Source: Winogradskyella endarachnes
GTDB lineage: Bacteria; Bacteroidota; Bacteroidia; Flavobacteriales; Flavobacteriaceae
Length of the DNA stretch: 64,000 nucleotides
Direction of reading: 5' to 3'
Assembly (NCBI RefSeq): GCF_009741275.1
Contig: NZ_WOWS01000001.1
Coordinates: 62,001 to 126,000 of the forward strand
The stretch's first letter is position 1; each line of letters opens with the position of its first letter. A model generated the notes under the pieces. The model was not told the origin of the DNA and did no database searches. It worked only from the letters and a program-made list of their open reading frames with translations. Below are positions 49,627 to 55,506 of this stretch, piece by piece. Made by a program: the position numbers and the translations under genes.

Positions 49627-51030
49627 TTATAAATCTGGGTTTACTGCTAAGCTGTTAAATAATTTTGCTTTAGTATTAAAAAACTTATTCTGAATAGCTA
49701 TGGCTTTTAACTGGCCATCGATTAGTTTAGATTCTCTAGAGTTAACCATAAATAAGGAGCTTTCTCCTAGTTGAAATTTACGTTCTTCTGCAGTAAGCAT
49801 TAACTCATAATCTATTACCATTTTTGTAGTAATTTCATTTTGAATTATATAAGATTCTAGTTCTTGCTTTAAGGCTGAAATTTTATTTTCTAGTGTTACA
49901 CGCGTAGCATTTCTTTCGTATTCTGTATCCTTTACTTTTAGTTTTGCTAATTTTAATTCGCCACGTTCCTTTCTTAAAAACAAAGGTAAACTTAAATTTA
50001 AACCACTCTTGTAATCAGCGGTATTAAAGGTATTTGTAGATTCTGGTGTTTCTGTTAAAAAATTATATTCAAGATTTATTTTAGGTAAAAGTTTATTTGC
50101 TTTTAGGCGTTTATCAACTTCTAAACTTTGTAATTTATAATCTAAAGAGCGCATTTTTGGATGTGTTTCTAATGCCATAGCTTCTGTTTGCAAAGCATTA
50201 ATACTAAAGGTAGCATCAATTATAGCTTCTGAATTTACATCTGGTATTACCTCTGGTTGTAGCTCTACAGGAATGTTATTTTCTAACCATAAAAAATTAG
50301 ATAATTCTAAAGCTGCTTTCATCAATTTTACTTTAGATTGTTCTAAGCCTAATTTTCTATTATTTAAAGCAATACGTGCTTCGGTTTCGTCAATTTTAGC
50401 ATTTTCACCAACGTCTACCCCTTTTTTTATACCTCTAAATCTTAAATCTGCGTTGGCTAAAATATTTTTATATAAGAGCAATTCATTATAGGCTTGTAAC
50501 CATTTAAAATAAACTAAAGACGCTTCATAAAGTAAATTGTTAACGTAAATATCTCTGTCAGCTTTAGCTTGTTCTCTAAATAGTTTGGCTTGTTTTAAAG
50601 AGGCCATTCTGTTGTTAATTAATAAGCCTTGTGCTAACGGAACAGATAAGCCTGCACTGTATAAACCATCTTCTGGTACGTATGATTCTGGATTAAGATA
50701 TTCACCAGAATTTTCTTCAAATGCAGCTTTTAATTCCACACCAAACCAAGTTGGTATTTTAAAAGTGCCGTTTAGTTTGTCATAATATTCTGTATTCTTG
50801 AATTTTTTACGATTATAATCAACTTCAATTTTGGGGTCAAAAGCACCACGAGATTTTAATAATTTCGCCTGACTTTTATCTATAACTAGTTCTGCCTGTT
50901 TTACAATAGGATGAAATTTTTTTACAAAACCTAAATATTCATCAAATCTTAAAACATTTGATAAATCTGATGCTTGGGAGAATCCATAAAAGGTAAAACA
51001 TAAAAATACAAGAGTAATTATATGTCTCAT
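49627..51030 (-). CDS. TolC-family outer-membrane channel
   Basis: 467 residues with an N-terminal signal (start MRHIITLVFLCFTFYGFSQA). Long helical repeats typical of TolC barrels and tunnels: VKKFHPIVKQAELVIDKSQAKLLKSRG..FDPKIEVDYNRK, then LSVPLAQGLLINNRMASLKQAKLFREQAKADRD, then the second half LSLPLFLRKERGELKLAKLKVKDTEYER. It provides the outer-membrane exit duct for the ABC/HlyD export complex encoded upstream, with which it is co-directional and only 3 bp apart. Confidence 0.92.
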   Translation of the reverse strand: MRHIITLVFLCFTFYGFSQASDLSNVLRFDEYLGFVKKFHPIVKQAELVIDKSQAKLLKSRGAFDPKIEVDYNRKKFKNTEYYDKLNGTFKIPTWFGVELKAAFEENSGEYLNPESYVPEDGLYSAGLSVPLAQGLLINNRMASLKQAKLFREQAKADRDIYVNNLLYEASLVYFKWLQAYNELLLYKNILANADLRFRGIKKGVDVGENAKIDETEARIALNNRKLGLEQSKVKLMKAALELSNFLWLENNIPVELQPEVIPDVNSEAIIDATFSINALQTEAMALETHPKMRSLDYKLQSLEVDKRLKANKLLPKINLEYNFLTETPESTNTFNTADYKSGLNLSLPLFLRKERGELKLAKLKVKDTEYERNATRVTLENKISALKQELESYIIQNEITTKMVIDYELMLTAEERKFQLGESSLFMVNSRESKLIDGQLKAIAIQNKFFNTKAKLFNSLAVNPDL

Positions 51031-51033
51031 AGT

Positions 51034-52383
51034 TTATTTCTTTTTAGAATTAGTAGTGTTTTTTGGCTGATAATAATTAGGAGGAAAACCATTAAGTTGT
51101 CTCCAAAGTTCAAACCAAATTGGCACGTCCTCTAATAGTGCCATAGTGTATGCGCCAGAGCCAGCTCTAATGTCTTTTGGCCAATCGAAGTCATCTTGGT
51201 CTGGTGCTAATAGCACTCTAAATTTTCCGTTATCACTAATAAAGTTTTCAATAGCCACTACTTCTGCACCATAAGTTCCGTAGGTAATATCTGGCCAGCC
51301 ACTAAAAACAATTGCAGGCCAACCATCAAATTGTACACGTACTTTAGCACCAATTTTTATTAGAGGCAAATCTATAGGTTCTACAAAGGTTTCTACAGCC
51401 AAATCTACTTGTGCAGGCATCATTCCAACTAAAGCTTCTCCTTCCTTAAACGTTTGGCCAACACCACCTCGTATAGCTTTATTTATATAACCATCAAAAG
51501 GTGCTTTAATAAACCTTAAATCATTTCGCATTTGATAATTAGAATATTGATTATCTAATTTTGAAACCTGTGCTTCTGTATCAAACTGACTAGATTGTGC
51601 TGTAAATTTATCGCTCTGTGCTTTCGAAATTTTGTCTGCATATGAGGCATTAACTCTAGAAATTTCAACTTGTGCGTTAATAACTTCATTCTTGCTTGCC
51701 AACAATTTGTTTTCTTGCGAAATTAATTTGGCTTCAGTTTCTTGTAGCTTTAAACGCTTGTCTTCTACATCCTTTGTGGCTTTAAAGCCTTCCTCTTGCA
51801 GTGTAACCGTTCTGTCAAATTGAAGTTTTGCAATCTTCTTATTAGTAATGGCGGCTTCGAGGTCAATGCTATCACTTTCTACTTTGTAACGTGATTGTAT
51901 AAGTTTGTTTTTTGCTTGTTCTAATTTTAAATTTCTCTCATTAGATAATGCAATTATTTGACGATTTAAAGCGTTTACTTTTTCGCTATAAGAACCAACG
52001 GATTGTGCTTTTGCATCTCGTTGTGCTGCAGTACGCTGTACTAAATTTGGGTCGAAATATTCGCTTTTAATTTCTGAAATTTTCATTATTGTATCACCTT
52101 TTGAAACAAAATCACCTTCGCGCACATACCATTGTTCAATACGTCCTGGAATTGGAGATTGAATTGTTTGAGGTCTTTGATCTGGTGTTAATGTAGTTAC
52201 ATTGCCACGGCCTGTAATATTTTGCGTCCATGGTAAAAACAAAATAATAACACCTATAATAGAAAATACAATTAAAAATCGATTAAAATTTTTGTAATAA
52301 CTATGTTTAAATACGCGTTCACCAGATTTAAATTTAATTAGGTCAACTGTTTTATGTAATTGATTATTAGAAATATTTAACAT
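51034..52383 (-). CDS. HlyD-family periplasmic adaptor
   Basis: 449 residues from the ATG at 52383 (MLNISNNQLHKTVDLIKFKSGE), which fits HlyD-type proteins better than a longer reading into the ABC gene. One membrane helix (about 35-51), a lipoyl half-motif (IQSPIPGRIEQWYVREGDFVSKGDTI), a long coiled coil (about 120-300) and a second lipoyl half (APFDGYINKAIRGGVGQTFKEGEALVGM) are visible. It links the inner-membrane ABC protein to the TolC-like channel. Spacing to neighbours is 11 bp (ABC) and 3 bp (TolC). Confidence 0.92.
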   Translation of the reverse strand: MLNISNNQLHKTVDLIKFKSGERVFKHSYYKNFNRFLIVFSIIGVIILFLPWTQNITGRGNVTTLTPDQRPQTIQSPIPGRIEQWYVREGDFVSKGDTIMKISEIKSEYFDPNLVQRTAAQRDAKAQSVGSYSEKVNALNRQIIALSNERNLKLEQAKNKLIQSRYKVESDSIDLEAAITNKKIAKLQFDRTVTLQEEGFKATKDVEDKRLKLQETEAKLISQENKLLASKNEVINAQVEISRVNASYADKISKAQSDKFTAQSSQFDTEAQVSKLDNQYSNYQMRNDLRFIKAPFDGYINKAIRGGVGQTFKEGEALVGMMPAQVDLAVETFVEPIDLPLIKIGAKVRVQFDGWPAIVFSGWPDITYGTYGAEVVAIENFISDNGKFRVLLAPDQDDFDWPKDIRAGSGAYTMALLEDVPIWFELWRQLNGFPPNYYQPKNTTNSKKK

Positions 52384-52394
52384 GATTATTTTTT

Positions 52395-54053
52395 TTAAAT
52401 GATTTCGCCGTCTTTTAATGTTACAACTTGCGTACAACTGCCTGACCATTCATTGGCTCTACTGACAACAACTAAAGCCCACGGGTTAGATTGGTCTGTT
52501 AAAAATTTAATGATTTTTTTAACCTCTCTTTCTGCAAAATAGTCTAATGGGTCTTCTAAAATTAAGAGTTTTGGATTGCCTAAAATTGCTCTTGCTAAAA
52601 TTATTTTTTTAGCAATGGTAAAGGATATTTGCTTACCTTCTGGGTATAGTATAGTATTTAAACCTTGAGGACTTTCTTTAACAAATTGGTAAAGCCCACA
52701 AATATCAATTGCCCACATTAATTCTTCATCAGAGACGTTTTTATTACCAAATGTAATATTCTCTCTAATTGAGCCTTCAAATGGAGTTTCGTCAATAAGA
52801 GACATACCGATGTTAGATCTGTAATGGTTCAGGTTTATGTTGTTTAGCATAAATTTATCTAAATATACTTTTCCTTTTGAGGGTTCTAATATTCCACCAA
52901 TTAATCGGAGTAGACTTGATTTTCCAGAACCACTTTCTCCTCTAATTAAAAGTCTACTTTTAGGTTTTATGGTTAAAGAAACGTTGTTTATAATAGGAGC
53001 CTCTCTATCTGGTACCACAAAAGAGACATTATCTAATTCAATACTAAAATTTTCTTTAAACTCGGGTTTTTCGCCTTTTTGGTTTTCTAGTTCCATATCA
53101 ACTATTTGTCCCATTTTCTCTAAAGATGTTAATACATCATAGAAAGATTCTAAACCTAAAATTAGTTTTTCTACTGAGGTAATAACCAATAAAATAATTA
53201 TTTCTGCAGCAACAAATTGTCCAATATTCATTTCTTGGTTTAAAACTAATAATCCACCAATAAGCAATAGGCCAGCTGTAACAATTACTTTAAATCCAAT
53301 CATCTGTATAAATTGGATGACTAAAACACTAAAGTGACTTTCTCTTGCTTTTAAATAGTCGTTAACTAATTCGTCGTTTTTATCTATTGCTAAACTTGTT
53401 TTACCAGATAATTTAAAACTAATTACAGCTCTTGCTACTTCTTGGATCCAATGTGCTACTTTGTATTTGTGTTTAGATTCTAAAAGACTTGTTTGCATAC
53501 CTTTTTCTGCTGTAAATTTAAATACTACATAAATTAAGATAAGTAGTAAAAAGCCAAAGGCAATAAAAAATGGGTGATAAAATGAAAGTAGAATTAAGGC
53601 AAAAATAATTTGAAGAATCGCAGCCGGTATATCTATAAGTATTTTTGATAATCCTTTTTGAATATTTAAAGTATCAAAAAACCTATTAGCTAATTCTGGT
53701 GGGTAATTATTTCGTAATTCCGTCATTTTAATTTTAGGAAAACGATAAGTGAATTCAAAAGAAGCCCTTGTAAATATGCGTTGTTGTATGGTTTCTATAA
53801 TACGCATTTGCATAAGTTGTAATACGCCTACAAAAGAAACTCCAATAGTTACTAATATTACCAAAACAATCCATGACGTACTTACTTGAGCACTCTGAAG
53901 TAAATTGATAATAGCCTGAATTCCTAATGGAAGCGTGAGCGCTAAAATTCCAGAAAAAATAGCATAATATACAACTTGAAATAAGTCTCGTTTCTCTAGT
54001 TTTAATAGTCCAATGAGTCTTCTCCAAGGTGATTTAATTTTATTTTTTTCCAT
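52395..54053 (-). CDS. ABC exporter protein with degenerate ATPase domain
   Basis: 552 residues: six membrane helices (residues about 25-310), then one ATPase domain, no N-terminal peptidase. Walker A is intact (GESGSGKS, 372-379). Other motifs are altered relative to normal exporters: the Q-loop Gln is Ile (in SLIDETPFEGSI), the signature LSGGQ is ISFTI (476-480), Walker B reads LLILEDP so the catalytic Glu is Asp (501), and the switch His is Ser (531, VVVSRANEW). A homodimer would therefore have no canonical ATP site. The HlyD and TolC partners are in the same operon. It may work by a non-standard cycle or need a partner; the cargo is unknown. Confidence 0.88.
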   Translation of the reverse strand: MEKNKIKSPWRRLIGLLKLEKRDLFQVVYYAIFSGILALTLPLGIQAIINLLQSAQVSTSWIVLVILVTIGVSFVGVLQLMQMRIIETIQQRIFTRASFEFTYRFPKIKMTELRNNYPPELANRFFDTLNIQKGLSKILIDIPAAILQIIFALILLSFYHPFFIAFGFLLLILIYVVFKFTAEKGMQTSLLESKHKYKVAHWIQEVARAVISFKLSGKTSLAIDKNDELVNDYLKARESHFSVLVIQFIQMIGFKVIVTAGLLLIGGLLVLNQEMNIGQFVAAEIIILLVITSVEKLILGLESFYDVLTSLEKMGQIVDMELENQKGEKPEFKENFSIELDNVSFVVPDREAPIINNVSLTIKPKSRLLIRGESGSGKSSLLRLIGGILEPSKGKVYLDKFMLNNINLNHYRSNIGMSLIDETPFEGSIRENITFGNKNVSDEELMWAIDICGLYQFVKESPQGLNTILYPEGKQISFTIAKKIILARAILGNPKLLILEDPLDYFAEREVKKIIKFLTDQSNPWALVVVSRANEWSGSCTQVVTLKDGEII

Positions 54054-54058
54054 AATTG

Positions 54059-54733
54059 TTATTTACTAATTGTGTTGAGGGTTAGTTCTTTAAAAAATGT
54101 GGTTGGTGTAACATGGTTATTACAGTCTGTAATTGAAATAAAATGTTCTTTTAAAAAGTGCTGATGTAAAGCGCCTTCTACTATGGTACTAGCTAAGCTA
54201 GAAGAATATTTATAATCTGGGTTTATTGCAATAATCATATCTCTTAAGCGTTGTATCATACGTTTATATACTACAAAATACCCATCTTTATTTTCACTAT
54301 CTACTTTTTTAGTTAAGTAAGACTTAGAGTTTTCATTAATAATAATTCTGTTTAACACAACTTCATTTATATGAGAAAAATTTTGGTCTTCCTCAATGTT
54401 CATAGTAATAATTTCTATAGCTTTAATAAGCTTTTCTTTAGGATTTGGTAAATTAAATGTTGCAAATACCATTTGGTATTCTATCCAAGCCCAATACCAT
54501 GATGATAAGTATAAAAGTAGTTTATGCTTACTTTCAAAATAGCGGTAGATAGAACTTTCATTAGAGCCAATTTTTGCACCTAATTTTTTAAATGTAAAAC
54601 AATCAAAACCTATTTCGTCTATTAATAATATGCTGTGTTCAATAATTCGCTTACCTAAATTGGAAGTTTCGGGATCTTTAATGTAAATCTTATCTGGTAC
54701 AGAAATTTTTAGATTTGATAGTAAGTTTATCAT
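54059..54733 (-). CDS. TetR/AcrR-family regulator of the export operon
   Basis: 224 residues from the ATG at 54733 (MINLLSNLKISVPDK). The DNA-binding HTH is IIEHSILLIDEIGFDCFTFKKLGAKIGSNESSIYRYFESKHKLLLYL (about 35-80). The rest is the helical ligand/dimer domain; its WYWAWIEYQMVFATFN segment is aromatic-rich and may line a pocket. It is the first gene of the operon with the ABC protein 5 bp downstream. A 17-bp palindrome overlaps its -7 box (54758-54774), which fits autorepression. Ligand unknown. Confidence 0.9.
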   Translation of the reverse strand: MINLLSNLKISVPDKIYIKDPETSNLGKRIIEHSILLIDEIGFDCFTFKKLGAKIGSNESSIYRYFESKHKLLLYLSSWYWAWIEYQMVFATFNLPNPKEKLIKAIEIITMNIEEDQNFSHINEVVLNRIIINENSKSYLTKKVDSENKDGYFVVYKRMIQRLRDMIIAINPDYKYSSSLASTIVEGALHQHFLKEHFISITDCNNHVTPTTFFKELTLNTISK

Positions 54734-54751
54734 AAATAATAAATTTGATTG

Positions 54752-54759
54752 CAAAGGTA
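54752..54759 (-). promoter_or_regulatory. -7 promoter box of the TetR operon
   Basis: TACCTTTG on the minus strand, a full TAnnTTTG, 18 nt before the ATG at 54733. Its first two bases lie within the operator palindrome. Confidence 0.6.
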
Positions 54760-54774
54760 ATAGTATTACTATTA
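54758..54774. promoter_or_regulatory. Palindromic operator candidate for the TetR regulator
   Basis: TAATAGTA-T-TACTATTA is a perfect 17-bp palindrome overlapping the -7 box of the tetR gene. Its size and symmetry are typical for TetR dimers, and bound protein would block transcription of the whole export operon. Confidence 0.65.
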
Positions 54775-54915: not shown

Positions 54916-55506
54916 TTATAATTCATGCAACAAATCTTCAATGCGCAAGCGTTTGCTATAATCATATTCATTAATGTCTTTTACAAAGCAATATGAACTA
55001 ATTTCACCAGATTTAACTTTTTCGGCTAATTCTTCAACTTTAAAAGGACCATATTCTTTAGAATTTTCAATGTAGTAAAATTCATGATCATAGATAACAC
55101 TACTTACTTTCTTTTTATATTTTTCTCTCAAGTACGTATTAATATCATCTACGTTATTAACTTCGTCCTTATAGTTTGTAGTGTTAATATACATCGCAAA
55201 TTCCTCTTTGTCTTGATTGTTGAGCACTAAGATGTCATCATCTTTAAAAAACACTTCAACGTTAATTAAACCATCTTCAGTTTCTATAGAGAATTTGTTT
55301 AATAAATTGATATTCCATGTTGTAGTAATAACATTATTTTGTCTAGAGATCTCTAAAACATTGTCTTTTTTAAACGTGTAAATAGATTTTTTTTTAGAAA
55401 TACCATTAACTAATAACCACTGTTGATTAATCAAAAGAGAATCGTGGTGATGTTCGTAGCTAAACGGCTTTAGGTTTGGTATTGTTTTGTGAAGGTAATT
55501 ACTCAT
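54916..55506 (-). CDS. Protein of unknown function with a GYF_2-like segment
   Basis: 196 residues, no signal peptide. The N-terminal 110 residues are beta-rich and unrecognised (SLLINQQWLLVNGISKKKSIYTFKKDNVLEI). The C-terminal part (EFYYIENSKEYGPFKVEELAEKVKSGEISSYCFVKD) matches the GYF_2 (DUF4339) pattern Y-x5-GP-x4-EL, which often binds peptides. Single gene, transcribed in the same direction as the TetR gene, 161 bp upstream. Role unknown. Confidence 0.75.
   Translation of the reverse strand: MSNYLHKTIPNLKPFSYEHHHDSLLINQQWLLVNGISKKKSIYTFKKDNVLEISRQNNVITTTWNINLLNKFSIETEDGLINVEVFFKDDDILVLNNQDKEEFAMYINTTNYKDEVNNVDDINTYLREKYKKKVSSVIYDHEFYYIENSKEYGPFKVEELAEKVKSGEISSYCFVKDINEYDYSKRLRIEDLLHEL

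Follow-up and report, generated by a model that had tools for sequence, protein, structure and literature searches.

ATP-binding cassette (ABC) exporters are defined by ATP hydrolysis. The membrane domains of LmrA (LmrA-MD, PMC2704374) and MsbA (MsbA-MD, PMC4979069), obtained by removing the nucleotide-binding domain (NBD) in the laboratory, still carry out proton-coupled transport. The same reports state that Glu314 in transmembrane helix 6 (TM6) is required for the ΔpH dependence of LmrA (PMC2704374), and that in MsbA ATP hydrolysis and protons act jointly, the full-length protein being the more efficient pump (PMC4979069). SbmA has no NBD; it is described as a proton-driven transporter that uses a glutamate ladder and probably derives from a full-length ABC transporter, and is placed among the SLiPTs, proton-driven peptide importers without coupling and elbow helices and with TM0a/b (PMC13316013). 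Here we describe a 552-residue ABC-exporter-like protein (P0001) encoded by an intact open reading frame (ORF) at 52395..54053, minus strand, of a 64,000-nucleotide stretch of Winogradskyella endarachnes (GCF_009741275.1, contig NZ_WOWS01000001.1, positions 62,001 to 126,000), hereafter the window. Sequence comparison favours, at somewhat better than even chances, its being the inner-membrane part of an HlyB-like tripartite exporter that has lost ATP hydrolysis and become a secondary pump, probably coupled to protons.

Domains and motifs of the window protein

The gene lies in a minus-strand operon with the order TetR, ABC, HlyD, TolC. The HlyD and TolC partners of the ABC protein are both present, as an HlyD-type periplasmic adaptor (51034..52383, minus; start taken at MLNISNN, position 52383) and, by family match, a TolC-type outer-membrane factor (OEP; 49627..51030, minus), and a TetR-family regulator precedes them (54059..54733, minus; PF00440, E 6.2e-7). 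With this HlyD start, the gaps are 5, 11 and 3 bp. Gene order and motif alignment thus agree with the initial annotation, which had seen a TetR, HlyD and TolC setting with gaps of 3-11 bp and a real export operon around a catalytically stripped ABC protein. The transmembrane domain (TMD), residues 1-325 (53079..54053, minus), matches the ABC exporter TMD family PF00664 at 41 bits (cut-off 28) and is the sole part left in the NBD-less relatives presented below. Residues 335-552 (52398..53051, minus) make up a degenerate NBD, recognised by profile, alignment and model: an AlphaFold2 model built on the family alignment (pLDDT 88.5) has the NBD fold, with most of that part at pLDDT 89-96. The best NCBIfam match of the protein is TIGR03375, with 192.7 bits, below the curated cut-off of 693.1.

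We placed the motif columns by alignment with eight canonical exporters of the same phylum. Walker A is kept as GESGSGKS at G372-S379 (52917..52940, minus), in agreement with GxxGxGK[ST], while the Q-loop position holds Ile420 (52794..52796, minus), a Gln in 8/8 canonicals, and the signature position reads ISFTI at 476-480 (52614..52628, minus) in place of LSGGQ. These three readings had already been made from the window alone. For Walker B the initial annotation was right that the catalytic Glu is an Asp (Asp501) but missed that the Walker B Asp has also changed, to Glu500 (both at 52551..52556, minus). Its replacement of the switch His by Ser531 must be corrected: the column, His in 8/8 canonicals, holds Arg532 (52458..52460, minus), and S531 is the preceding residue, 92% conserved in the degenerate clade.

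The family is present in hundreds of genomes and widespread in one large bacterial group. Within the genus, 47 of the 60 sampled genomes, including that of W. endarachnes, hold a full-length copy; the 46 others are 68-91% identical to the window protein, and the closest named loci are those of W. ludwigii (91%) and W. eckloniae (88%). The motifs of these orthologues were read in an aligned subset rather than in all 46, and every aligned copy shows the same losses. In the wider family, the complete motif set was found in 0/148 distinct full-length relatives versus 8/8 canonical exporters. Walker A is present in 143 of the 148, the Q-loop Gln in 11, the full signature in 3, Asp plus Glu in 16 and the switch His in 15.

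The 16 relatives with Asp-Glu (DE-type) all belong to the same phylum but to classes other than that of the window; 14 of them have the His and none the Q-loop Gln. Three relatives (L105, L106 and L139), with LSTGQ, Asp-Glu and His and without the Q-loop Gln, come closest to a working site among the 148. Same-context relatives with intact motifs had been named at the outset as what would speak for a decayed copy; these three approach that state in signature, Asp-Glu and His, but they lack the Q-loop Gln and fall outside the clade to which the window protein belongs. Among the 132 rows of the degenerate clade, the residues at the Q-loop, signature and His columns vary, and the Walker B Asp column holds Glu in 105 rows, Lys in 19, Asn in 5 and Asp in 2. 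As aligned, the Q-loop, signature, Walker B and catalytic, and switch residues are lost clade-wide, in the class of the window and a few rows beyond. Rows ending at a contig end (L091, L166) were dropped, and L095 was left out of the trees.

NBD-less relatives and the order of losses

Four relatives from the phylum search matched only residues 6-327 of the window protein, in open frames of 334-349 aa. We searched 350 genomes of one order, that of one of these four, with a TMD-only profile and obtained 150 matches in 145 genomes, hence one copy per genome as a rule. The ORF lengths of these matches fall into two groups, 94 at 333-380 aa and 56 at 535-593 aa, with none between. In total, 23 NBD-less loci were read, the four from the phylum search and 19 of 20 from the order search; L166 was rejected as NBD-less because its locus stops at a contig end. 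In 23/23, HlyD comes immediately after the TMD gene, mostly with overlap, and TolC after HlyD; no NBD-like ORF was found between the three genes in these loci, several of which sit in single-contig genomes. All NBD-less rows belong to the class of the window, and in the four proteins scanned PF00664 is the only Pfam family above cut-off. One genome (G440) carries two such TMD-HlyD-TolC operons about 22 kb apart (L151, L152), and two others (G559, G625) hold a similar pair of NBD-less matches.

An AlphaFold2 model of one NBD-less protein (L103), also built on the family alignment, reached pLDDT 89.9 and superposes on HlyB of the HlyB/D complex (8dck) with Z 27.1 and rmsd 2.7 over 324 residues, and on TmrAB with Z 27.6. 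SbmA was not among the 50 matches listed for this model, which excludes nothing. The model keeps the leading helix and the short helices in both intracellular loops, and, as in the model of the window protein, six long transmembrane segments follow the leading helix. Some TMD positions conserved in full-length relatives are changed in the NBD-less ones. Four of them, Tyr117, Pro119, Trp202 and Phe213, lie beside the intracellular loops and may mark the lost contact with the NBD; further helix positions are Gln90, Gln247, Leu269 and Tyr305.

To order these losses we built a TMD tree from 125 rows, with canonical exporters as the root, and a second tree of 66 rows, both of them subsets of the family. 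In the 125-row tree, a single clade (101 rows, SH-aLRT 100) unites all degenerate and NBD-less rows and leaves the Asp-Glu relatives outside; nested within it, the 23 NBD-less rows are again monophyletic (SH-aLRT 99). Four of the degenerate rows are labelled outside the class of the window. The tree is explained by three changes, the minimum, with one loss of Asp-Glu and one of the whole NBD; its exact root is unsure, because long outgroup branches meet there.

The search was also taken beyond Bacteroidota, to plasmids. In a tblastn search of plasmids with an NBD-less TMD, 22 records matched, 15 of them from sphingomonad genera (Alphaproteobacteria), at 24-28% identity among the 8 of these 15 listed. 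Seven sphingomonad records were fetched, of which six were intact and read. All six encode a protein long enough for TMD and NBD, then HlyD and TolC, and Walker A is absent from all of them; in the two proteins scanned, Pfam ABC_tran scored 16.6 bits (cut-off 25) in one and went unreported in the other. In the 66-row tree the state without Walker A needs two origins, one in sphingomonads and one in L127, which belongs to the class of the window; the placement of the sphingomonads is unsure, because of long branches and unusual composition. The plasmid records annotate family copies as "ABC transporter ATP-binding protein". In the seventh record, a plasmid of Sphingopyxis sp. 113P3 (L237), the ORF stops at 475 aa, without Walker A, and an adjoining IS3-family transposase gene is annotated.

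We then compared selection on the two domains where both are present. Among 14 distinct sequences of the Winogradskyella group, mean identity is 0.914 for the TMD and 0.775 for the NBD, and the NBD is the better conserved in 0/91 pairs. After exclusion of pairs with dS >2 or <0.05, dN/dS is 0.032 for the TMD and 0.076 for the NBD in this group (14 usable pairs of 91), 0.026 and 0.049 in Flavobacterium-like group A (10 of 10 pairs) and 0.032 and 0.063 in Flavobacterium-like group B (5 of 91 pairs), the latter two groups having been named by us from a kinship code. The canonical exporter of the same genus, also with 14 sequences, shows the opposite: mean identity is 0.853 for the TMD and 0.905 for the NBD, the NBD is the better conserved in 74/91 pairs, and dN/dS is 0.070 and 0.047, respectively (59 usable pairs of 91). 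This control omits the own-genome copy L189, only 30-33% identical to the others, and L200, from another genus. Among NBD-less members a single pair had a usable dS (0.180) and was not interpreted. Together, these data indicate that both domains are under purifying selection, with the emphasis reversed relative to the canonical exporter of the genus: the NBD has not become a pseudodomain, although the strongest constraint no longer falls on it.

Energy source and rival explanations

Three carboxylates of TM6 are candidates for an alternative drive. First, Glu284 (53202..53204, minus) is acidic in 132/132 degenerate, 15/16 DE-type, 23/23 NBD-less and 6/6 sphingomonad members versus 0/35 canonicals. 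Second, Glu295 (53169..53171, minus) is acidic in 131/132 degenerate, 15/16 DE-type and 23/23 NBD-less members and in 4/35 canonicals. Third, Asp306, at the cytoplasmic end of TM6 (53136..53138, minus), is acidic in 130/132 degenerate, 14/16 DE-type, 23/23 NBD-less and 6/6 sphingomonad members. All three positions are acidic together in 130/132 degenerate, 23/23 NBD-less and 12/16 DE-type members but in 0/35 canonicals. These 35 comprise the eight aligned exporters and 27 of 30 further loci (L218, L226 and L228 yielded no ORF above the TMD-profile threshold); two of them, L214 and L215, are cut ORFs without C-terminal motifs. Being eleven residues apart, the three carboxylates would share one helix face. 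Asp306 is not claimed as the positional equivalent of LmrA Glu314: the spacing to the following Glu-Arg does not fit.

We therefore envisage the following mechanism. The protein would serve as the inner-membrane part of an HlyB/HlyD/TolC-like exporter, here under a TetR regulator, in a family that would have stopped hydrolysing ATP while retaining TMD, HlyD and TolC. A homodimer of the TMD would alternate access, and something other than ATP hydrolysis would drive this cycle or at least gate it, most likely the proton gradient, through Glu284 together with Glu295 and Asp306. Nucleotide bound by the members that have a P-loop, such as the window protein, would be a structural or regulatory clamp. 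More tentatively, a lipid or small molecule may be a likelier cargo than a large protein, because the operon has a TetR gene and no cargo gene was recognised beside it (neighbours of the relatives were not annotated for cargo). The proposal can be extended, with the chances about evenly balanced, to a natural conversion of an ATP-driven tripartite exporter into a proton-driven secondary one with its steps preserved, and to an NBD-less TMD-HlyD-TolC class independent of SbmA. The preserved steps would be a near-canonical state with Asp-Glu and His, an NBD with only its P-loop (the window protein), an NBD without P-loop (sphingomonads) and the complete absence of the NBD.

Several points weigh against this reading. 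Most DE-type members already have Glu284 and Glu295, so that these residues do not track the loss of ATPase; they may predate the loss of ATP drive and have paved the way for it. Glu295 is acidic in 0/6 sphingomonads, Asp306 is common in canonicals (19/35), and the depth of TM6 residues in the membrane was estimated from hydrophobicity and the limits of the helices rather than from the structure of a dimer. Since MsbA uses both ATP and protons, proton coupling need not imply loss of ATP use, and coupling to protons is here a best guess, made because of the LmrA, MsbA and SbmA precedents, rather than a result. In the degenerate members, G372, G375, G377 and K378 of Walker A are kept in 127-131 of 132 (the Lys in 129/132), so nucleotide matters in most of them, and a dN/dS far below 1 means that the NBD still does something there. 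The genomes of the genus that supplied the identity sets also differ in part between the family and the canonical exporter. Finally, an ABC ATPase fragment lies at the end of one NBD-less locus (L168, 9519-10001), 4.25 kb downstream of the TMD gene; it has no counterpart in the other 22 NBD-less loci and is possibly a stand-alone NBD.

The alternative that survives best, although we hold it to be unlikely, is a nucleotide-gated exporter, in which the degenerate NBDs would form stable dimers on binding ATP but not hydrolyse it, so that nucleotide binding, release or sensing, instead of a proton gradient, sets the conformation and the NBD-less clade is a derived form with altered function. It would account for Walker A in 143/148 full-length relatives, an NBD dN/dS of 0.05-0.08 and the well-modelled NBD, and there is precedent, since ATP is described as staying for minutes at a degenerate site of ABCC1 and ABCC7 (PMC7756269). 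However, NBD-less members and sphingomonad members without Walker A keep the same operon, and the Walker B Asp is replaced by Glu, Lys or Asn in 129/132 degenerate members. ATP binding without hydrolysis, one of three options raised by the initial annotation, thus fits the Walker A census but cannot be central to how the family works, given a clade devoid of NBDs and the absence of Walker A from those sphingomonad copies that were read.

Somewhat less probable again is that the protein is no longer a pump: the TMD would act as a passive channel or scaffold, seating the HlyD-TolC duct in the inner membrane, while cargo moves down its gradient. This idea draws on the absence of a demonstrated energy source and on the NBD-less loci, where HlyD comes next in 23/23 and TolC after it in 23/23. 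Yet the TMD is constrained at least at the canonical level (dN/dS 0.032 versus 0.070), and the charged TM6 residues are conserved.

Pairing with a conventional ABC half was the second option of the initial annotation. We consider it improbable that such a partner, encoded elsewhere, supplies one or more working ATP sites in a heteromer. Other ABC exporters are present in the cell: we found 49 NBD matches in the own genome and exporter-type matches in 61/61 sampled genomes of the phylum, and ABC heterodimers in which one site is degenerate are well documented (PMC7756269). At the loci themselves the option gained no support. The stretches read around the 171 family loci extend 4.5 kb to both sides in 79, reach 3 kb in 120 and fall short of 2 kb in 47; within 4.5 kb, and to the extent of these stretches, 166 of the loci showed no additional NBD-like ORF. 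Besides the L168 fragment, the scan returned UvrA abutting in L138, ABC-F-like proteins in L153 and L161, and, in L107, an opposite-strand ABC ATPase of 259 aa at a distance of 3 kb; none of these five extra ORFs is a half-transporter in the operon, nor does one lie beside it within reach in any of the 171. Moreover, the window protein has changes at the Q-loop, signature, Walker B, catalytic and switch positions alike, not only at those of one composite site, and the order search gave 150 copies in 145 genomes, one per genome as a rule.

The third option, a non-standard active ATPase hydrolysing ATP with residues outside the known set, is more doubtful still. Walker A is kept and the new residues recur at the old motif places among closer relatives, but the Walker B position tolerates Lys, the Q-loop, signature and His columns vary, and one clade has deleted the NBD altogether; this clade and the sphingomonad copies without Walker A weaken the idea. 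Isolated decay or a sequencing or assembly error, for which only the motif losses would speak, is rejected by the open frame in 47/60 genus genomes, the shared losses of these orthologues, the clade-wide motif state and purifying selection, and has next to no chance of being correct.

Neighbouring features and comparison with known systems

Upstream of the TetR gene, the palindrome TAATAGTAATACTATTA (54758..54774, minus) is a likely TetR operator. It overlaps the candidate -7 promoter box TACCTTTG (54752..54759, minus), an instance of TANNTTTG, which we take to be the Bacteroidota-type -7 consensus. Because the listed TetR start, TTG at 54754, lies within this candidate promoter, the ATG at 54733 was taken instead. 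A 7+7 palindrome near a TANNTTTG box occurs in 40 of 97 TetR-ABC loci versus a mean of 0.34 over 50 shuffles, and most palindrome matches among the 45 loci listed are of the TAATAGTAATACTATTA type, 15 nt before TANNTTTG. A same-strand TetR gene lies directly upstream in 99/147 full-length members versus 0/23 NBD-less loci; in two of the latter (L167, L168) a TetR gene is on the opposite strand. The gene before TetR in the window, on the same strand (54916-55506), encodes 196 aa and matches GYF_2 weakly (23.5 bits, cut-off 25.8).

We also observed a C-terminal tail of the WRxLNGFP type in the HlyD proteins, in 23/23 of those beside NBD-less TMDs and 112/141 of those beside full-length members (four short ORFs set aside). 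The 12 exceptions listed read WRQLNSFP or WRQINSFP, and the tail is found in 0/6 other HlyD-like ORFs of the same loci. Its confinement to the adjoining HlyD speaks for a dedicated adaptor, and the conserved WRxLN(G/S)FP tail is possibly a docking signal.

Among the open-literature matches listed we found no published account of the family or of an NBD-less HlyD/TolC exporter, most subscription journals being outside this scope, and the six term-matched passages of a tripartite and type 1 survey (PMC8277102, Chem Rev) do not mention such an exporter. The family would show how an NBD becomes dispensable, in graded steps, within a multi-component exporter. Its natural NBD-less and NBD-dead homologues in matched operons would allow a test of whether the membrane domains of ABC exporters can run on ion gradients, as has been claimed from LmrA and MsbA. 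It also means that the annotation "ABC transporter ATP-binding protein" does not imply an ATPase.

With the HlyB/HlyD/TolC type I secretion system (T1SS) exporters, as well as PCAT1, LapB/LssB and PrtD, the family shares the TMD fold, PF00664 and an operon that also holds HlyD and TolC. TIGR03375 as best NCBIfam match and the superposition of the NBD-less model on HlyB point the same way. Unlike these exporters, it has lost the ATP-hydrolysis residues, stays well below the TIGR03375 cut-off, has one clade without any NBD and shows no recognised cargo gene beside the window operon; TM6 Glu284, absent from the 35 canonicals, sets it apart from canonical exporters in general. TM287/288, TmrAB and BmrCD, each with one degenerate site, are similar in fold, in Asp for Glu and in altered NBD residues, but they keep a canonical site through a partner, of which none was seen beside the family loci. 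LmrA-MD and MsbA-MD resemble the proposed pump in that those TMDs alone transport with protons and, in LmrA, a TM6 Glu (E314) matters for ΔpH dependence (PMC2704374, PMC4979069); they are laboratory truncations of working ATPases, whereas here the loss of the NBD is natural and clade-wide and the exporter tripartite.

The NBD-less relatives also resemble SbmA/BacA (SLiPT), with an ABC-exporter-type TMD without NBD and conserved glutamates. The window protein, in contrast, has an NBD fold, so that only the NBD-less relatives share the NBD-less state. Unlike SLiPTs, the models keep short intracellular-loop helices and six long transmembrane segments, and the partners are HlyD and TolC. As regards a glutamate ladder, what the family shows is its own set of TM6 carboxylates. 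We infer an origin separate from that of SbmA, which is absent from our trees. Taken together, the sequence comparisons place T1SS exporters and SLiPTs as the nearest kinds, the former separated from the family by the catalytic residues that define them and the latter by their defining architecture.

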